Below, piece by piece: positions 4,176 to 20,131 of a stretch of 20,131 bases of DNA. The translations under genes and the position numbers were made by a program. Under the pieces are notes generated by a model. That model did not search any database. It was given only the letters and a program-made list of their open reading frames with translations, and had not been told where the DNA came from. The stretch spans positions 1-20,131 of the IMG/VR virus record IMGVR_UViG_3300010354_000900; one strand, written 5' to 3'. How positions within the stretch are numbered: position 1 is the stretch's first letter; each line of letters opens with the position of its first letter. The stretch comes from a virus.

Positions 4176-4457
4176 TTAACCAGCAACAACATTAGGACTT
4201 CCGTCGGCTCTCGGATGGCCGCATTGGTCCATGTTCCCTCTAACATTAATTGGTATATATTCCGCAATTACATTTGTCAACCCATTGCTAGTAACTGTTG
4301 ACAAATGTGGCGGAAAAAAGGGCATATGGGGTGTAACACCGGTACCATCGATTACTATAGGTAGTCCATTAACCAGTACCGATGGGGCACCAACTCTTGC
4401 AGCCCCACCGGCAGTATTTCGATCGCCTTCTCTATGTACTGGTTCTTGTGGCATCAT
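4176..4457 (-). CDS. PAAR-domain spike-tip protein
   Basis: The 93-residue protein matches the PAAR family, which forms the sharp metal-bound cone at the end of the central spike of contractile tails and type VI secretion systems. Visible features are PVHREGDRNTAGG, the repeated short-strand pattern (GAPSVLVNGLPIVIDG), several His residues (PHMPFFPPHLS) and a late CGHPRADGSPNVVAG, with His and Cys as candidate metal ligands. Translation probably starts at the ATG at 4457, which overlaps the upstream stop (TGATG); a TTG one codon earlier is also open. The next gene downstream is the large probable baseplate protein, fitting a tail-tip module. Confidence 0.9.
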   Translation of the reverse strand: MMPQEPVHREGDRNTAGGAARVGAPSVLVNGLPIVIDGTGVTPHMPFFPPHLSTVTSNGLTNVIAEYIPINVRGNMDQCGHPRADGSPNVVAG

Positions 4458-11679: not shown

Positions 11680-11725
11680 AAAAAAATAGTGTTAGACTGT
11701 TTTATAACATATCTAACACTATTTT
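11680..11725 (-). terminator. Intrinsic terminator directly before the exonuclease start codon
   Basis: A 14-bp perfect stem (arms 11712-11725 and 11683-11696) with a 15-base loop is followed on the minus strand by seven T residues ending at 11680. It would end transcripts of the 137-residue gene (stop at 11736). The stem includes the A and T runs, so it may work in both directions. Confidence 0.85.
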
Positions 11726-13527: not shown

Positions 13528-13808
13528 AATTTATTAAAAAGCGTCACAATCAATGTAATCATTCCGCCCATTAAAACTCCTAATATACTTGTACCTATTG
13601 TTATTAATTGCTTACTTTGTTTATTAGAGGCATTTGCAATCGATTCTCTAATAAACAAAACATGGCCTTCTAATAATTTTACTTCTGCACTAACTGAATC
13701 TATTTTTGCTTGTAAAGTTGTATATCGTTCAGCTAGTACCCCGTATCTTTCTGCACACAATTCTACATGTGCCTCAAGATTGGCTTTTTCAATATTTGTT
13801 GTCGACAT
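13524..13808 (-). CDS. Coiled-coil protein with C-terminal membrane helix (94 aa)
   Basis: Residues 1 to about 62 form a heptad-rich coiled coil (ERYTTLQAKIDSVSAEVKLLEGHVLFI); a single hydrophobic helix follows (about 68-92, TIGTSILGVLMGGMITLIVTLF) with a short NKL end. The plan resembles XhlA-type and similar phage membrane proteins that accompany holins, or a tail-anchored virion assembly factor. AAGGG precedes the ATG. It heads the transcript from the promoter at 13881-13910, with four or more genes overlapping behind it. Its distance from the SleB/holin pair argues against a simple lysis-cassette role. Confidence 0.7.
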   Translation of the reverse strand: MSTTNIEKANLEAHVELCAERYGVLAERYTTLQAKIDSVSAEVKLLEGHVLFIRESIANASNKQSKQLITIGTSILGVLMGGMITLIVTLFNKL

Positions 13809-13910: not shown

Positions 13911-13938
13911 AAAAAAGCCCTACATTGTAGGGCTTTTT
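13909..13938. terminator. Strong bidirectional intrinsic terminator
   Basis: GCCCTACA-T-TGTAGGGC (13917-13933) is a perfect GC-rich inverted repeat with eight A residues on the low side and five T residues on the high side. On the minus strand it gives a hairpin followed by eight U, 20 bases after the stop of the 95-residue gene. It can also act on the plus strand. Confidence 0.95.
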
Positions 13939-15392: not shown

Positions 15393-16858
15393 AGTGAGTT
15401 ACTAATCTGTCTAAACCAAGCCGCAGTTCCTGGTTGTATTGTTTCAGGTAATTTCATTAGGCCTTTAGCAGCATCTTGCCTAGCTTGAGATAACTTACCT
15501 TCTTTATCGGGATCATTTTCTAGTGCTTTGAGAATTGTCTTAACACTATTTAGATCGTTTTCTTTAGCTTTTGGACCTAATAATATTTTAGCAACTTCTT
15601 TACGAGTTCTGCCAACAATCTCGTTATCATCCCGACGAATTAAATTTGCACCAAAAGGATCAAATTTTAATCCTAGATATTTGGCAATACTACTAATTAA
15701 CATAAAGACTTCGCTACCCTTGAATTCAGGATCCGAATACATCCCCCGTAGTCCATGTTGGTGCCATGGTGCAACTATAGATGCTTCTTTAATTATCATT
15801 ACATCAACTTGAGCTATTTGTTTTTTTCTAGTTTTACCAGCAACATAAACGATTCCAATACTTACATTGCGACCGTTAACATTGGCTTCTATACCTTTAT
15901 TTTCAAAATAAGATTTTAATTTTTGTTTTGCCTCTTTAACAGGATCTTTAGAATCTTCTGTTTTAAACAATTTAATTACATCTTCGGCTTCAACCATTAG
16001 ATCGATATCGCCCGATTGTAGTTTATATCCAGCAGACCCTATATCTGTTTGCAGTTGCGGAGTTAATTCTGCTGGTATTAATTTTTTAGCCAATTCAACT
16101 ACAGTTTTAACATCATCTTGATTAACTGGAACAGAGTTAGCTATTGCATTTCCTCCTTCATTGATAACTGCGCTTTCGGTTACATTGGTCGGTGGTCTTG
16201 CACTAGAAATATTAGTAATATTAGAACCGGCCCCCGGAGCAGAAAAATCAAATTGCTGTTGTGCTGTTGCCGCTTCAAGATCGGGATTTTTAATTTGTTT
16301 ACCTGACTGTATAGCTAGTTTTATATCATGATATGTTTTATTCAAGAACTGAATATCTTTGGGGACTTTGATTTCTTGACCGTTTTCTTTATAGGTCCAA
16401 GTTTTCTTTTTAGAATCATAATATATAATATGACCTTGAACATTTAATTCGGCATCCACTCTAGGATAAGCATAATCCGTAGGAAGTTGCGACGGGGTGC
16501 TTGTTGTTGCAGGTGCTGCTTGAAAATATTCCTGTATTCGTTTAAAAATATAATCGTAAATGATATTATTATTTAAAACACCAGAAGGTATAGCTACATT
16601 TGAATTAGGACGATCGTGAAATTGCTGATTTGCCCAATTGGTTAAAATTTGGTTTAGTTGACCGGGAGCTACATTAGGATGCCTTGCTACTTCTTGATTC
16701 CATTTTTGAAAATAATGATCGGCTACCTTTTTAAGTTCTTCCTTTTCGGCTCGTTGTGCTCTACCTGCTTGCACATTTCTAATAGCCCCTTGAATACCAG
16801 ATCCTATTTTTCTAGCCCAGTCGCCGATTCCTTCGTAAACTATTTCATTTATTTTCAT
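15389..16858 (-). CDS. Pol-beta-type nucleotidyltransferase with long N-terminal extension
   Basis: The 489-residue protein has a nucleotidyltransferase domain in its second half: Gly274-Ser275 (IGSAGYKL), Asp284-Ile-Asp286 (SGDIDLMVEA) and third Asp352 (QVDVMIIK), the GS...DxD...D metal triad of the Pol-beta fold. Residues 1 to about 230 are an uncharacterised helical extension with Pro/Thr- and Ala/Gln-rich linkers. It starts MKINEIVYE then GIGDW, similar to capsid-targeting peptides. A second site-like INE at 232-234 followed by GGNAI resembles the start I recall for shorter phage homologues, suggesting fusion of two proteins or proteolytic release of the enzyme. It overlaps the upstream gene by 14 bases and the ligase-like gene by four. 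The added nucleotide and the target are unknown. Confidence 0.75.
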   Translation of the reverse strand: MKINEIVYEGIGDWARKIGSGIQGAIRNVQAGRAQRAEKEELKKVADHYFQKWNQEVARHPNVAPGQLNQILTNWANQQFHDRPNSNVAIPSGVLNNNIIYDYIFKRIQEYFQAAPATTSTPSQLPTDYAYPRVDAELNVQGHIIYYDSKKKTWTYKENGQEIKVPKDIQFLNKTYHDIKLAIQSGKQIKNPDLEAATAQQQFDFSAPGAGSNITNISSARPPTNVTESAVINEGGNAIANSVPVNQDDVKTVVELAKKLIPAELTPQLQTDIGSAGYKLQSGDIDLMVEAEDVIKLFKTEDSKDPVKEAKQKLKSYFENKGIEANVNGRNVSIGIVYVAGKTRKKQIAQVDVMIIKEASIVAPWHQHGLRGMYSDPEFKGSEVFMLISSIAKYLGLKFDPFGANLIRRDDNEIVGRTRKEVAKILLGPKAKENDLNSVKTILKALENDPDKEGKLSQARQDAAKGLMKLPETIQPGTAAWFRQISNSL

Positions 16859-17096
16859 TTTTTAATTTTCTTATCCCACGAACAAATTTGGTTGAGTCGC
16901 CACTACGAATACTATTCAACAACCGGCGCTCAAGTTCTCCGGAAACTTCTTGATCGTAATTTTCTCTTATAAAGGAAAGTAAATTAATGGCACTTTGAAT
17001 AACATTAGCTGCACGACTTTCAACAAAGTGTTCTTTGTCTCTTTGTGTTGCAATCTGATCTAATTCAGCCAATAAACTTTTAGTACGATTTTGCAA
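16845..17096 (-). CDS. Conserved small helical phage protein (83 aa), TTG start
   Basis: The frame opens at a TTG at 17096; GGAGG lies nine bases before it, and the only nearby ATG (17112) is in another frame, so TTG is the likely start. The protein is helical and charged (SLLAELDQIATQRDKEHFVESRAANVIQSAINLL, shown as its core theme in two helices) and ends in SGDSTKFVRGIRKLKNENK. I recall close relatives in marine T4-like phages, without function. A perfect late promoter lies just upstream, so it may be the first gene of the late nucleotidyltransferase/ligase unit. It overlaps the next gene by 14 bases. Confidence 0.75.
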   Translation of the reverse strand: MQNRTKSLLAELDQIATQRDKEHFVESRAANVIQSAINLLSFIRENYDQEVSGELERRLLNSIRSGDSTKFVRGIRKLKNENK

Positions 17097-17117: not shown

Positions 17118-17125
17118 TATTTATA
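17118..17125 (-). promoter_or_regulatory. Perfect T4-type late promoter TATAAATA
   Basis: TATAAATA on the minus strand overlaps the TAA stop of the helicase gene. RNA would start near 17112, giving a 16-base leader that includes GGAGG before the TTG at 17096. It separates early replication genes from the late unit behind them. Confidence 0.8.
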
Positions 17126-18527
17126 CTTGTGAGCTTTTAAAACTGCTTAACATTTGTCGTAGTTTTGTAGATTCTGATGATACATTTATTTTAGGTTGAT
17201 CGGATGATGTCGTATCTTTGTTAATAGTAGTTTTAGTTCTAATAGATTCTAACGCAGAAACTGCACTGTTCCTATAAGCAGAATCCTCTTTGGGCGATTC
17301 ACCGGGATCAGTAATACGCATATTTTCCATATTATAATCTAAATCGATTTTTTGTCCTACACCAGTCGAACTACGAGATTTCATGCATTGAATCTGATAT
17401 TTCCCTCTTTCTCTCATTGCTCTGCTAGTAAAAATACCAAATACATTATCGGCAGTATTAATTTTACTAATACCACCCGAAATATGACTATGATCGAATT
17501 CGACTTCTTCTACTGCACTTCGATTTAATTGACTAGCTGTTACCATTAAGACGCCTAGCTCTTTGGCTAAATTTCTTAATTCTTCAGAGACATACTTGTC
17601 TTTAACGAATAAATCACTAGGACTAACTTTAGTACTCACTGGCATAAGCAAATCTAAATAGTCAACCATAACAAAGTCTACCCGGATTCCAGTTTGAATC
17701 TGTACTTCTTTTAAGTAGCTGCGTATATCATTAATATTACTCTGCGCCGGAAGACCTTTTACACGATATTGTCCGGCTTTTTTTCCAGCTATTTTAATCT
17801 TTAATTCTGTATTTTCTATGTCTCTTCGTATCTCTTTTGTACTCATACCAGTTAACATAGCATCAGTTCGCAAGCTAGTTAATTCTTCGCTAAGTTCTAG
17901 AGTAATATAAATTCCACTAAGACCGGCCTGTAACCAGTTCAATGCTATGTTCATCATAACCAAAGATTTACCCGACCCAGAGCCGCCGGCGAAGATGTTT
18001 AGTTCGCCTCGGCTGAACCCACCATATAGCAATCTATCCATTTGAGGCCAACCTGTGCTGACTTGTCCGCCACTGTTAAAATATTTGTTAATACGCTCAC
18101 TGGGACTAGCCCAATAGTCTGTGCCCATGTCCTTGGTTAAACTAATTTGTACGGCGTCTTTGATCAGTCGCTCAACAGGATCAAACTCACCCTTTTCGAT
18201 CATGTCCGCGGCTTTGAGAATTGCTCTTTCAAGTTCTTGTTTTTTGGTAAACGACTCAAACTCATTCATAAACCATTCTAAATGGTTATCGTTTATTTCC
18301 GGAACAGGGCGTAATTCAACACCTGTAACTGCTCTTATTTGATCATAGGTGGGCAAAGTTTTATACTGATCCGAATGTGTAGCTAAAAACTTAGCACACT
18401 CTCTTAGACCGCGATCAAAATTGTCTGGATTGTAGATATTCTGAACCCGCACAAAACTTTGTGCGTCAGTTAACATAATTTCTAAAAATAGTTTTTGTAA
18501 ATCAACCGAATATTCTTTAAGAGTCAT
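17121..18527 (-). CDS. 41: Replicative DNA helicase, DnaB/T4 gp41 type
   Basis: The 468-residue protein has an N-terminal helical domain (about 1-150) that in this family binds the primase, then a RecA-like motor: Walker A GGSGSGKS at 181-188, ITLELSEE, Walker B VDFVMVDYLDLL at 283-294, and the TASQLNR motif (Gln333) that senses nucleotide. The tail after about residue 405 is polar and probably flexible (many Ser, Thr, Lys). It unwinds DNA 5' to 3' on the lagging strand as a hexamer. The gene begins three bases after the primase stop with no clear ribosome-binding site, but a promoter-like pair ends just before it. Confidence 0.94.
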   Translation of the reverse strand: MTLKEYSVDLQKLFLEIMLTDAQSFVRVQNIYNPDNFDRGLRECAKFLATHSDQYKTLPTYDQIRAVTGVELRPVPEINDNHLEWFMNEFESFTKKQELERAILKAADMIEKGEFDPVERLIKDAVQISLTKDMGTDYWASPSERINKYFNSGGQVSTGWPQMDRLLYGGFSRGELNIFAGGSGSGKSLVMMNIALNWLQAGLSGIYITLELSEELTSLRTDAMLTGMSTKEIRRDIENTELKIKIAGKKAGQYRVKGLPAQSNINDIRSYLKEVQIQTGIRVDFVMVDYLDLLMPVSTKVSPSDLFVKDKYVSEELRNLAKELGVLMVTASQLNRSAVEEVEFDHSHISGGISKINTADNVFGIFTSRAMRERGKYQIQCMKSRSSTGVGQKIDLDYNMENMRITDPGESPKEDSAYRNSAVSALESIRTKTTINKDTTSSDQPKINVSSESTKLRQMLSSFKSSQV

Positions 18528-18530
18528 AAC

Positions 18531-19511
18531 TTAATTATATAGTTTTCTTTTGCGTAATTCAATTTTAAGTTTGCTGATTTCCCGAGATTCAAGAATGCTT
18601 TTGAGCACAAATAGTTTTCCATAGCGTACTGTAGCTTCATTAATATCCTTACAAGTCTCTAACCATAATGGAAAACTTACAGTCCACCCGTATTTGACAG
18701 CATAATCAATAAGTTGAGCACCGGCGGCATCTGAGTCGGGTACAACAATAACTTCCCGTCTAAGACTATCAATGATATCGGCCTGATCTTCGCTACATTC
18801 ATTGCTCAGTACAGCAACACCATCTACACTCATGGCATCAAAAGGACCCTCGCTGACTATAACAAACTGCCAATCTTTTTGTTGACGATCAATGTTAAAC
18901 ACATAATGCGGCTCATGATTACTATAATATTTGGGTTTAACTGTGGAATCCCAGGTCCTAGCAGTATAACCAATTATTTCATTATGCCAAGTAAAGGGGA
19001 TTATCAATCTACGATTCAAATTATTCGCTATAGATTTACTAGTATAGATTGGATACTTATCTGGATTAATATTTCTTTCTAACAAATATTGTAATACCTT
19101 TGCATCTTTAGACTCAAGTACATTAACTGCATCCTCGGGTAAATAACGAGGTTTGAAGACTACTTCCTGTTGTTTTTCTTTTTCTAAAATTTCAGGTGCA
19201 ACTAAATCTTTGACCCGAATCGCTTCAAAAACCAAACGCCGTATTGTGTTTTCATCGGCCCCTAACCAGCCAATTAATTTTCGAAATTTATAGTTTAAAT
19301 GGTAGCCTGGGCTGTAACTAGCTTTAAAATTACAATTAAAACAATGATAGCTAATGCCACCATTATTATTGAACATTATACCTCCTCGACCACGGGTGTC
19401 TGCGGTTTCCCCGTTATGCACACAACAAGGTGCATTAAAACTAATCCAGCCCGAAGGACTACGCTTTTTGCGAGCCGGAAGTAATTGTAGTGCAGTATTT
19501 TGGATGGACAT
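18531..19511 (-). CDS. 61: DNA primase, T4 gp61 type
   Basis: The 326-residue protein has an N-terminal zinc-binding motif (Cys29/Cys30, His32 in CCVHNG, then Cys57 and Cys60 in HCFNC), a linker, and a Toprim domain with Glu221 (VIVSEGPFDAMS) and Asp259-Ser-Asp261 (VVPDSDAAG), the metal-binding residues of DnaG-type primases. It makes RNA primers for the lagging strand with the helicase encoded next. The start is set at the ATG at 19511, because AAGGA lies five bases upstream; an in-frame ATG two codons earlier overlaps that site. The start region is one arm of a 12-bp hairpin (19511-19545), which suggests regulated translation. Confidence 0.93.
   Translation of the reverse strand: MSIQNTALQLLPARKKRSPSGWISFNAPCCVHNGETADTRGRGGIMFNNNGGISYHCFNCNFKASYSPGYHLNYKFRKLIGWLGADENTIRRLVFEAIRVKDLVAPEILEKEKQQEVVFKPRYLPEDAVNVLESKDAKVLQYLLERNINPDKYPIYTSKSIANNLNRRLIIPFTWHNEIIGYTARTWDSTVKPKYYSNHEPHYVFNIDRQQKDWQFVIVSEGPFDAMSVDGVAVLSNECSEDQADIIDSLRREVIVVPDSDAAGAQLIDYAVKYGWTVSFPLWLETCKDINEATVRYGKLFVLKSILESREISKLKIELRKRKLYN
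18534..18562 (-). promoter_or_regulatory. Putative sigma70-type promoter at the end of the primase gene
   Basis: TTGAAT (18562-18557), a 17-base spacer and TATAAT (18539-18534) lie on the minus strand inside the last primase codons. The predicted start falls exactly on the A of the helicase ATG (18527). The motif is partly a by-product of the codons for Leu-Tyr-Asn and stop in AT-rich DNA, so confidence is limited. Confidence 0.45.
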
Positions 19512-19545
19512 TAGCATCCTTAATATTTTATACTAAGGATGCTAA
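19511..19545 (-). promoter_or_regulatory. Primase RBS-sequestering hairpin with a -10-like box in the loop
   Basis: A perfect 12-bp inverted repeat (TTAGCATCCTTA at 19545-19534 and its complement at 19522-19511 on the minus strand) encloses an 11-base loop. The 3' arm contains AAGGA and the first base of the start codon, so a read-through RNA would hide the primase ribosome-binding site. The loop holds TATAAA (19532-19527), with a weak TTGATT 15 bases upstream (19553-19548). RNA begun there would lack the 5' arm and be open for translation. Confidence 0.7.
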
Positions 19546-19561
19546 AAAATCAAAGATTTAT

Positions 19562-20131
19562 TTACCAACTACTTGTACCGGTAATTTTTACCCAAATATT
19601 TGCAGTACCATCAGTATAGTTGGTATTACAAATATAAAAATCGTCACCGCTGATTGAATAATACCCTTTAAGGTCTCCTGATACACCTTTGTTAGTAGTC
19701 GGAGCAGAATCTTTATAGTGCACAAGGTGTGTGCTAACGCCCGAACCAAGTGAAGTAATATCAATAAATGCACCTCGAGCATCGCCGCCCTGCTCAAATA
19801 TTCGTAACTTATTTTTATAAGCATCAACGGTAATGCCCGTTCCTGAATAATCTGCATTAGTATTAGGTTTTGATAATAATAACTCACCACCTTCGTCGCC
19901 TGAACCTGCTAAAATAGTCATCTGCGGAACAGACACTATGTTTGAAGCAAATGTAAAGTACGGGCTACCGGCCGGATCGTTAGAACTATCTTTGTAAACT
20001 ACTTGATTAGCAGAACCTGCCACGGGACCAGCACTTCCGGTATAACCAACACTACCGGCATAACCCACTGCACCCTGATCGCCTTGGCTACCTGTATAAC
20101 CAGTAGTTCCTTGAATGCCTTGATCTCCTTG
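19562..20131 (-). CDS. Tail fibre protein with collagen-like repeats, 5' end beyond the window
   Basis: The frame is open from the window edge (20131) to the stop at 19562, 189 codons. The visible N-terminal part is a collagen-type Gly-X-Y run (QGDQGIQGTTGYTGSQGD and onward for about 13 triplets), followed by GSANQVVYKDSSNDPAGSP, a strand-rich globular end (TILAGSGDEGGELLLSKP, GITVDAYKNKLRIFEQGG) and a final DFYICNTNYTDGTANIWVKI. Collagen-like triple helices are common shafts of phage fibres and the end probably a trimer tip. A GTG at 20068 is only an internal valine codon. It lies upstream of primase with a 50-base gap holding the hairpin. Confidence 0.85.
   Translation of the reverse strand, partial: QGDQGIQGTTGYTGSQGDQGAVGYAGSVGYTGSAGPVAGSANQVVYKDSSNDPAGSPYFTFASNIVSVPQMTILAGSGDEGGELLLSKPNTNADYSGTGITVDAYKNKLRIFEQGGDARGAFIDITSLGSGVSTHLVHYKDSAPTTNKGVSGDLKGYYSISGDDFYICNTNYTDGTANIWVKITGTSSW

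Follow-up and report, generated by a model that had tools for sequence, protein, structure and literature searches.

A predicted leaderless promoter of a phage primase gene whose spacer may close the start codon in read-through RNA

A putative dual-purpose control element is located in front of the DNA primase gene of the virus record IMGVR_UViG_3300010354_000900 (IMG/VR), whose 20,131 bases were analysed as a whole, are termed the window here and carry their long open reading frames on the minus strand. Occlusion of read-through messages resembling that known from phage T4 appears to be combined at this gene with a leaderless promoter of early type on a replication gene, a reading to which we give somewhat better than even chances. 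Its computed basis consists of the promoter-to-ATG spacing, the absence of a Shine-Dalgarno (SD) sequence, the excess of pairing between promoter spacer and start region, the bias of this pairing to the sense strand and the cost of opening the initiation region.

The primase gene (18531..19517, minus strand) encodes a T4 gp61-like protein of 328 aa (PHROG DNA primase, E 1.5e-38), which gave 62 matching records among named relatives, the best at about 36% identity. The nearest named relatives are jumbo phages, including PA5oct, Atu_ph07, SCTP-2, RaK2, 121Q and others, and the relatives in PA5oct, RaK2 and 121Q carry a primase annotation. Upstream lies the 3' part of a tail-fibre/collagen-like gene on the same strand (19562..20131, stop codon TAA at 19564-19562), which matched PHROG tail/tail fiber with E 7e-6 and Pfam Collagen with E 1e-4, the latter below the cut-off. 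Since this virion gene runs in the same direction and its end lies 44 nt from the primase ATG, RNA read through from it, the proposed source of read-through, would contain the promoter spacer. Downstream follows a T4 gp41-like replicative helicase of 468 aa (17121..18527, minus strand; PHROG DnaB-like helicase, E 6e-67), for which a possible second leaderless promoter, TTGAAT-N17-TATAAT-N6-ATG, lies inside the primase 3' end (18527..18562, minus strand). It is built from the last primase codons (Tyr-Asn-stop), and similar, less conserved sites occur in relatives, where 64 of 150 primase tails end in YN and 58 of those 64 contain TATAAT. Elsewhere in the window, positions 750-1079, which from a motif may encode a GIY-YIG homing endonuclease, have TTGACC close upstream.

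The primase start codon was assigned by homology to the ATG at 19515..19517, which aligns in all 80 sequences of the first scan, a set comprising 79 of the 80 first-scan loci (L072, which lacks upstream sequence, was dropped) and the window. The -10 box ends 6-8 nt before the ATG in 79 of these sequences, and a -35-like hexamer is situated 17 nt above it in 76. A second scan, with the start resolved in 72 of 80 loci, added 47 loci not identical to the first set, all of which have a spacer of 17-18 nt and 6-8 nt from -10 box to ATG. Pooling of six scans gave 372 entries including the window, many of them from the same contigs; the start was located by protein motif in 351, and 160 unique upstream sequences (63-mers) were finally obtained, 21 loci without the motif and 4 with short upstream sequence being left out. 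The -10 box was found 6-8 nt before the start in 159 of the 160 (157 by script, L071 and L268 by eye, with L020 as the exception), and 157 possess a 17-nt spacer to a -35-like hexamer. Among the motif-less loci, the promoter is visible by eye in seven (L004, L005, L201, L204, L248, L272 and L404) and also in L140, which has a GTG start; L072, L267 and L349 begin inside the gene, and the other ten form a clade (L176, L177, L181, L183-L185, L193, L196, L412 and L427) in which the start of the primase overlaps the stop of the gene before it. These ten loci have no leaderless promoter, and translational coupling to the virion gene is suggested there instead.

In the window, the promoter is of the sigma70 type and reads TTGATT-N17-TAAAAT-N7-ATG, with the -35 box at 19548..19553 and the -10 box at 19525..19530 (minus strand), both supported by prediction and by conservation in the relatives, whose -10 boxes are TATAAT, TATACT or TAAAAT. 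RNA from sigma70 promoters usually starts about 7 nt after the -10 box, so that with the observed spacing of 6-8 nt the primase message, judged from its sequence, should begin at the start codon or within a base or two of it and should thus be leaderless. Messages of this kind are known, as exemplified by the lambda cI mRNA made from PRM. The preliminary description had placed the RNA start inside the loop of the hairpin, from where the -10 spacing shifts it to the start codon. Moreover, an SD core 4-11 nt before the primase start occurs in none of the 160 unique upstream sequences, as compared with 106 of 294 ORFs in the genome of a relative and 5.8% of random 20-mers. The same description had taken 19511 as the start codon and held that a primase SD is hidden in the hairpin, and both claims had to be given up: with the start at 19517 by homology, the supposed SD (AAGGA/AAGG) touches or overlaps the start codon and does not stand 5-9 nt before it, and the only start that AAGGA could serve is the second ATG, at 19511, which is missing from the relatives inspected. 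Initiation at 19511 with AAGGA as SD is ruled out by these two sets of counts. We propose that the primase has its own sigma70-type promoter of early or middle type, which would be read by the host polymerase and whose leaderless mRNA would be translated without an SD.

The hairpin itself was confirmed as a perfect 12-bp inverted repeat on the minus strand, with the 5' arm TTAGCATCCTTA (19545-19534) lying within the promoter spacer, an 11-nt loop GTATAAAATAT (19533-19523) and the 3' arm TAAGGATGCTAA (19522-19511), which is composed of the discriminator, the start codon and the second codon. If one G.U pair is allowed, the 5' arm extends to 19530 and the stem becomes one of 16 bp closed by AAA; the -10 box is found at the top of the hairpin. 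The hairpin stretch folds as RNA at -20.3 kcal/mol (z -6.1), a stability reached in none of 200 shuffles, and z falls to -10 against shuffles of the spacer only, while the computed cost of opening the initiation region is 19.7 kcal/mol in read-through RNA versus 0.2 in leaderless RNA. As the 5' arm is promoter spacer and the 3' arm is discriminator and start, only RNA read through from upstream can fold in this way, and the primase promoter's own RNA would lack the 5' arm. In read-through RNA, the spacer is proposed to pair with the discriminator and start-codon region and the resulting hairpin would bar ribosomes from the start codon.

A 12-bp repeat alone is not unique, because other perfect repeats of 12-14 bp are present in the window (4270-4308, 11683-11725, 13616-13659 and 13912-13938), and it is the position that counts. 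The one at 11683-11725 (minus strand) has a perfect 14-bp stem, a U-run and TTATAAAA in its loop; it directly abuts the ATG (11679) of an exonuclease-like gene and, going by its sequence, could be a terminator positioned at a start codon. The one at 13912-13938, which has a 13-bp perfect stem, a 1-nt loop and A/T runs, is terminator-like and located between genes. The primase hairpin is not a terminator, because its stem is followed by TGTCCATCC and no U-run, and it is absent from the list of predicted minus-strand terminators in the window. T4-type phages are known to carry promoter-early stem-loops (PeSL), in which a promoter and a stem-loop between genes are combined with a terminator; the present locus shares the combination of a promoter with an intergenic stem-loop but differs in the missing U-run and in its arms, which are promoter spacer and start codon. 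The intrinsic terminator was ruled out, and the U-run looked for as a mark of a PeSL was not found. A known Rfam family was likewise ruled out, as Rfam 15 gave no match at the gathering score in the window. In a separate observation, the promoter-hairpin stretch of locus L074 is identical to that of the window though the two primases are only about 73% identical, which points to a recent exchange or to constraint that is strong.

Pairing between spacer and start region recurs throughout the relatives. For 91 dereplicated 48-mers (L020 was excluded from the fold sets), the mean native fold is -9.1 kcal/mol, compared with -5.6 kcal/mol when the 3' halves are swapped (z -14.4; 0 of 10,000); the same half-swap test gave z -10.3 for the first 40 loci and z -4.2 (1 of 5,000) for 17 out-of-sample loci, and shuffling of the spacer within each locus gave z -24 (0 of 200). 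In addition, opening of positions -8 to +12 costs 8.8 kcal/mol natively versus 5.5 in swaps (z 14.5), with 10.6 kcal/mol in loci having a non-coding gap and 0.5 in the leaderless RNA. The AUG itself is paired weakly above swaps (0.63 vs 0.56, z 2.1); the stem stops just short of it in some loci (L011, L041 and L210) and extends into primase codons in others (L006, L026, L145, L180, L182 and L377). No pair rose above z 3 for covariation in registers aligned on the -10 box (47 and 40 sequences), which means that there is no fixed fold and that the stem drifts, and a fixed conserved fold was ruled out. Compensatory changes in relatives, to which the preliminary description had appealed, were accordingly not seen at any single pair.

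It could be argued that only the leaderless promoter is conserved and that the repeat, with its centre at the -10 box, serves as a DNA operator to which a repressor or activator of the primase promoter binds. In many loci the repeats are indeed centred on or near that box, the antisense strand of the 91 sequences displays strong excess pairing too (z -11.7), and the excess at other leaderless sites (n=48) is weak and equal on both strands (z -3.0 sense, -2.8 antisense). A palindrome, however, predicts symmetry between the strands, and this was not what the relatives exhibited: among the 39 non-Watson-Crick cells of the stems in 40 loci, 21 are G.T, 4 are A.C and 14 are others, and the sense fold exceeds the antisense fold by -1.46 kcal/mol natively versus -0.50 in swaps (0 of 10,000; 91 sequences). 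The preponderance of G.T over A.C and the sense-strand excess together point to RNA. The arm sequences also vary between lineages with no shared operator motif seen by inspection, and excess pairing is concentrated where read-through is possible, although not significantly so on independent lineages; we consider the operator unlikely. The comparative computation thereby supports the earlier proposals that the hairpin is formed by read-through RNA only and, with the promoter in 159 of 160 sequences, that an internal promoter gives RNA free of the 5' arm.

The gene context was compared as well. Where the upstream gene is co-oriented and a non-coding gap follows it, 42 of 65 loci received a hairpin call and 23 did not; the numbers were 1 of 7 for loci with a divergent upstream gene, 4 of 17 for those in which coding sequence from upstream runs into the spacer and 0 of 2 for those of unclear context. 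L021 and L040, divergent in the 91-sequence swap analysis, were reclassed as gap loci for these counts. On phylogenetically independent pairs the association with context is not significant (about 4.6 vs 2.3, median p 0.69). The difference between contexts agrees with the read-through model, but coding constraint accounts for part of it. Five loci (L008, L014, L015, L018 and L027) have a related gene of about 210-226 aa in divergent orientation to the primase; in four of the five it starts some 71-75 nt upstream. The strongest stems occur in the gap context, and in most gap loci the hairpin lies no more than about 60 nt from the upstream stop, as would also be expected if it served the 3' end of the upstream virion mRNA, for its stability or processing (an RNase III site, for example), and covered the primase start as a side effect of the short intergenic gap. 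A protector of the 3' end need not cover the primase initiation region, yet the stems repeatedly enter primase codons and raise the opening cost of that region well above swaps, which renders this explanation improbable, a little more so than the operator.

With regard to timing, the 7-mers ATAAATA and TAAATAC, which represent the T4-type late motif, are the most enriched upstream 7-mers in the genome of a 357-kb relative (G001), and in 21 of 88 loci TAAATA occurs in the 45 nt that precede the upstream gene. Together with the tail-fibre-like nature of the upstream gene, these motifs make late read-through into the primase plausible, and upstream virion-gene RNA, expected to be late, would then run into the primase gene. 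In the window, a small gene with a TTG start (16845-17096) has TATAAATA, a T4-late-like box, just before it. A switch of the T4 late type was also conceivable for the primase, with a late box in the loop, an SD hidden in early read-through RNA and the primase expressed late, since the window loop reads TATAAAATA, near TATAAATA, and T4-type late motifs are present in the related genome. This is very improbable, as the relatives carry TATAAT or TATACT at that position and a -35 box 17 nt away from it, a virion gene and not an early one lies upstream, and there is no SD. The TATAAA promoter box that had been noticed in the loop is accordingly retained as part of a promoter, namely a sigma70 -10 box, and not as a T4 late box.

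Hairpin-occluded genes are described for T4 (e, soc, 49, I-TevI, II, III and segB) and for Aeh1 (mobE) in PMC2988022 and PMC3014915. In the long read-through transcripts of these genes a stable RNA stem covers the initiation region, whereas RNA started at an internal promoter lacks the 5' arm, as is envisaged here. Those genes hide the SD and/or the AUG and their internal promoter is late or middle, whereas the window locus has no SD and is further set apart by a sigma70-type promoter with a -35, a predicted leaderless RNA and a replication gene behind a virion gene. Of four T4-class features tested, the computed helix over the initiation region and the internal promoter without the 5' arm (159/160) were found, and an SD in the helix (0/160) and a late promoter (TATAAATA without a -35; here sigma70 with a 17-nt spacer) were not, for which reason the locus is said to work like the T4 class and not to be a member of it. 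The parallel drawn earlier to T4 e and I-TevI consequently holds for occlusion and internal promoter, and fails for the hidden SD and the late box. The T4 hairpin-regulated genes 'are all late genes' according to the review PMC2988022, and to judge from the sequence the timing is probably reversed here, where a replication gene that follows a virion gene has a promoter of early type.

Leaderless mRNAs that lack an SD and have a -10 box immediately ahead of the start codon, as predicted here, are reported from Deinococcus-Thermus, where -10 boxes are adjacent to ORFs, in PMC12340547, whose available text describes no hairpin of spacer and start codon; in the present case this hairpin recurs in a family of jumbo phages in which many other genes use SDs. 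The AR9 paper (PMC5312081) states that phage transcripts are often leaderless, yet gives AR9 leaders of 26-491 nt. The word 'leaderless' does not occur in the available text of PMC3014915 or in a 2026 review of jumbo phages (PMC13282480), and in that of PMC9693318 it occurs in a reference only. A search of open-licence papers found no description of the arrangement of promoter spacer and start codon in one hairpin.

The leaderless class extends beyond the primase. The pattern TTGA-N19-TATA[AC]T-N5-8-ATG gave 32 matches in one set of 9 records, 6 of which had at least one, and 43 in another of 10, all of which did, in both instances with 0 in the reversed control; nine named isolates gave 15 matches versus 4 in the control, PA5oct contributing 5 versus 0. 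In G001, the distance from -10 box to first ATG peaks at 6 on the coding strand, and the genes with leaderless sites include those of primase, helicase, SbcD-like nuclease, 5'-3' exonuclease, 3'-5' exonuclease, DnaJ, a radical SAM protein and a GGACT protein, in addition to two small ones without a Pfam match and another without a PHROG match. Predicted leaderless promoters thus seem to recur throughout the genomes, frequently in front of genes of DNA metabolism. A few non-primase sites have strong start-codon hairpins, e.g. G017:53081 and G013:60753. Among cultured phages, the Pseudomonas phage PA5oct, whose primase is about 36% identical to that of the window, carries TTGACA-N17-TATAAT-N6-GTG at this gene, the same arrangement but with GTG as the start codon, which is in frame and lies within the primase as annotated; the hairpin there has 8 bp, two of them G.U. 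Its primase as query retrieved only 2 relatives in viral contigs, and no published RNA 5' ends for PA5oct were found in the search of open-licence papers. Leaders are instead longer in 121Q, RaK2, Munch, CBB and Vibrio 2.275.O, and most of them contain, on inspection by eye, an SD-like sequence.

If the start codon is hidden in read-through RNA, the primase would be made from its own promoter only, independently of tail-gene transcription. More tentatively, at slightly less than even chances, it may be supposed that in this jumbo-phage lineage DNA-metabolism genes (primase, helicase, SbcD-like nuclease, exonucleases and DnaJ) are leaderless and that the promoter spacer has evolved repeatedly as an anti-start-codon strand behind a late virion gene. 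In that case, the promoter DNA would double as a translation-off switch in read-through RNA, following the logic of T4 lysozyme with the timing reversed and with no ribosome-binding site. One short stretch of DNA would then serve both as promoter spacer and as RNA lock, by which a replication gene would be insulated from the transcription of its late neighbour without a terminator; meanwhile, the recurrence of such promoters suggests that this jumbo-phage lineage employs leaderless translation as a systematic strategy.
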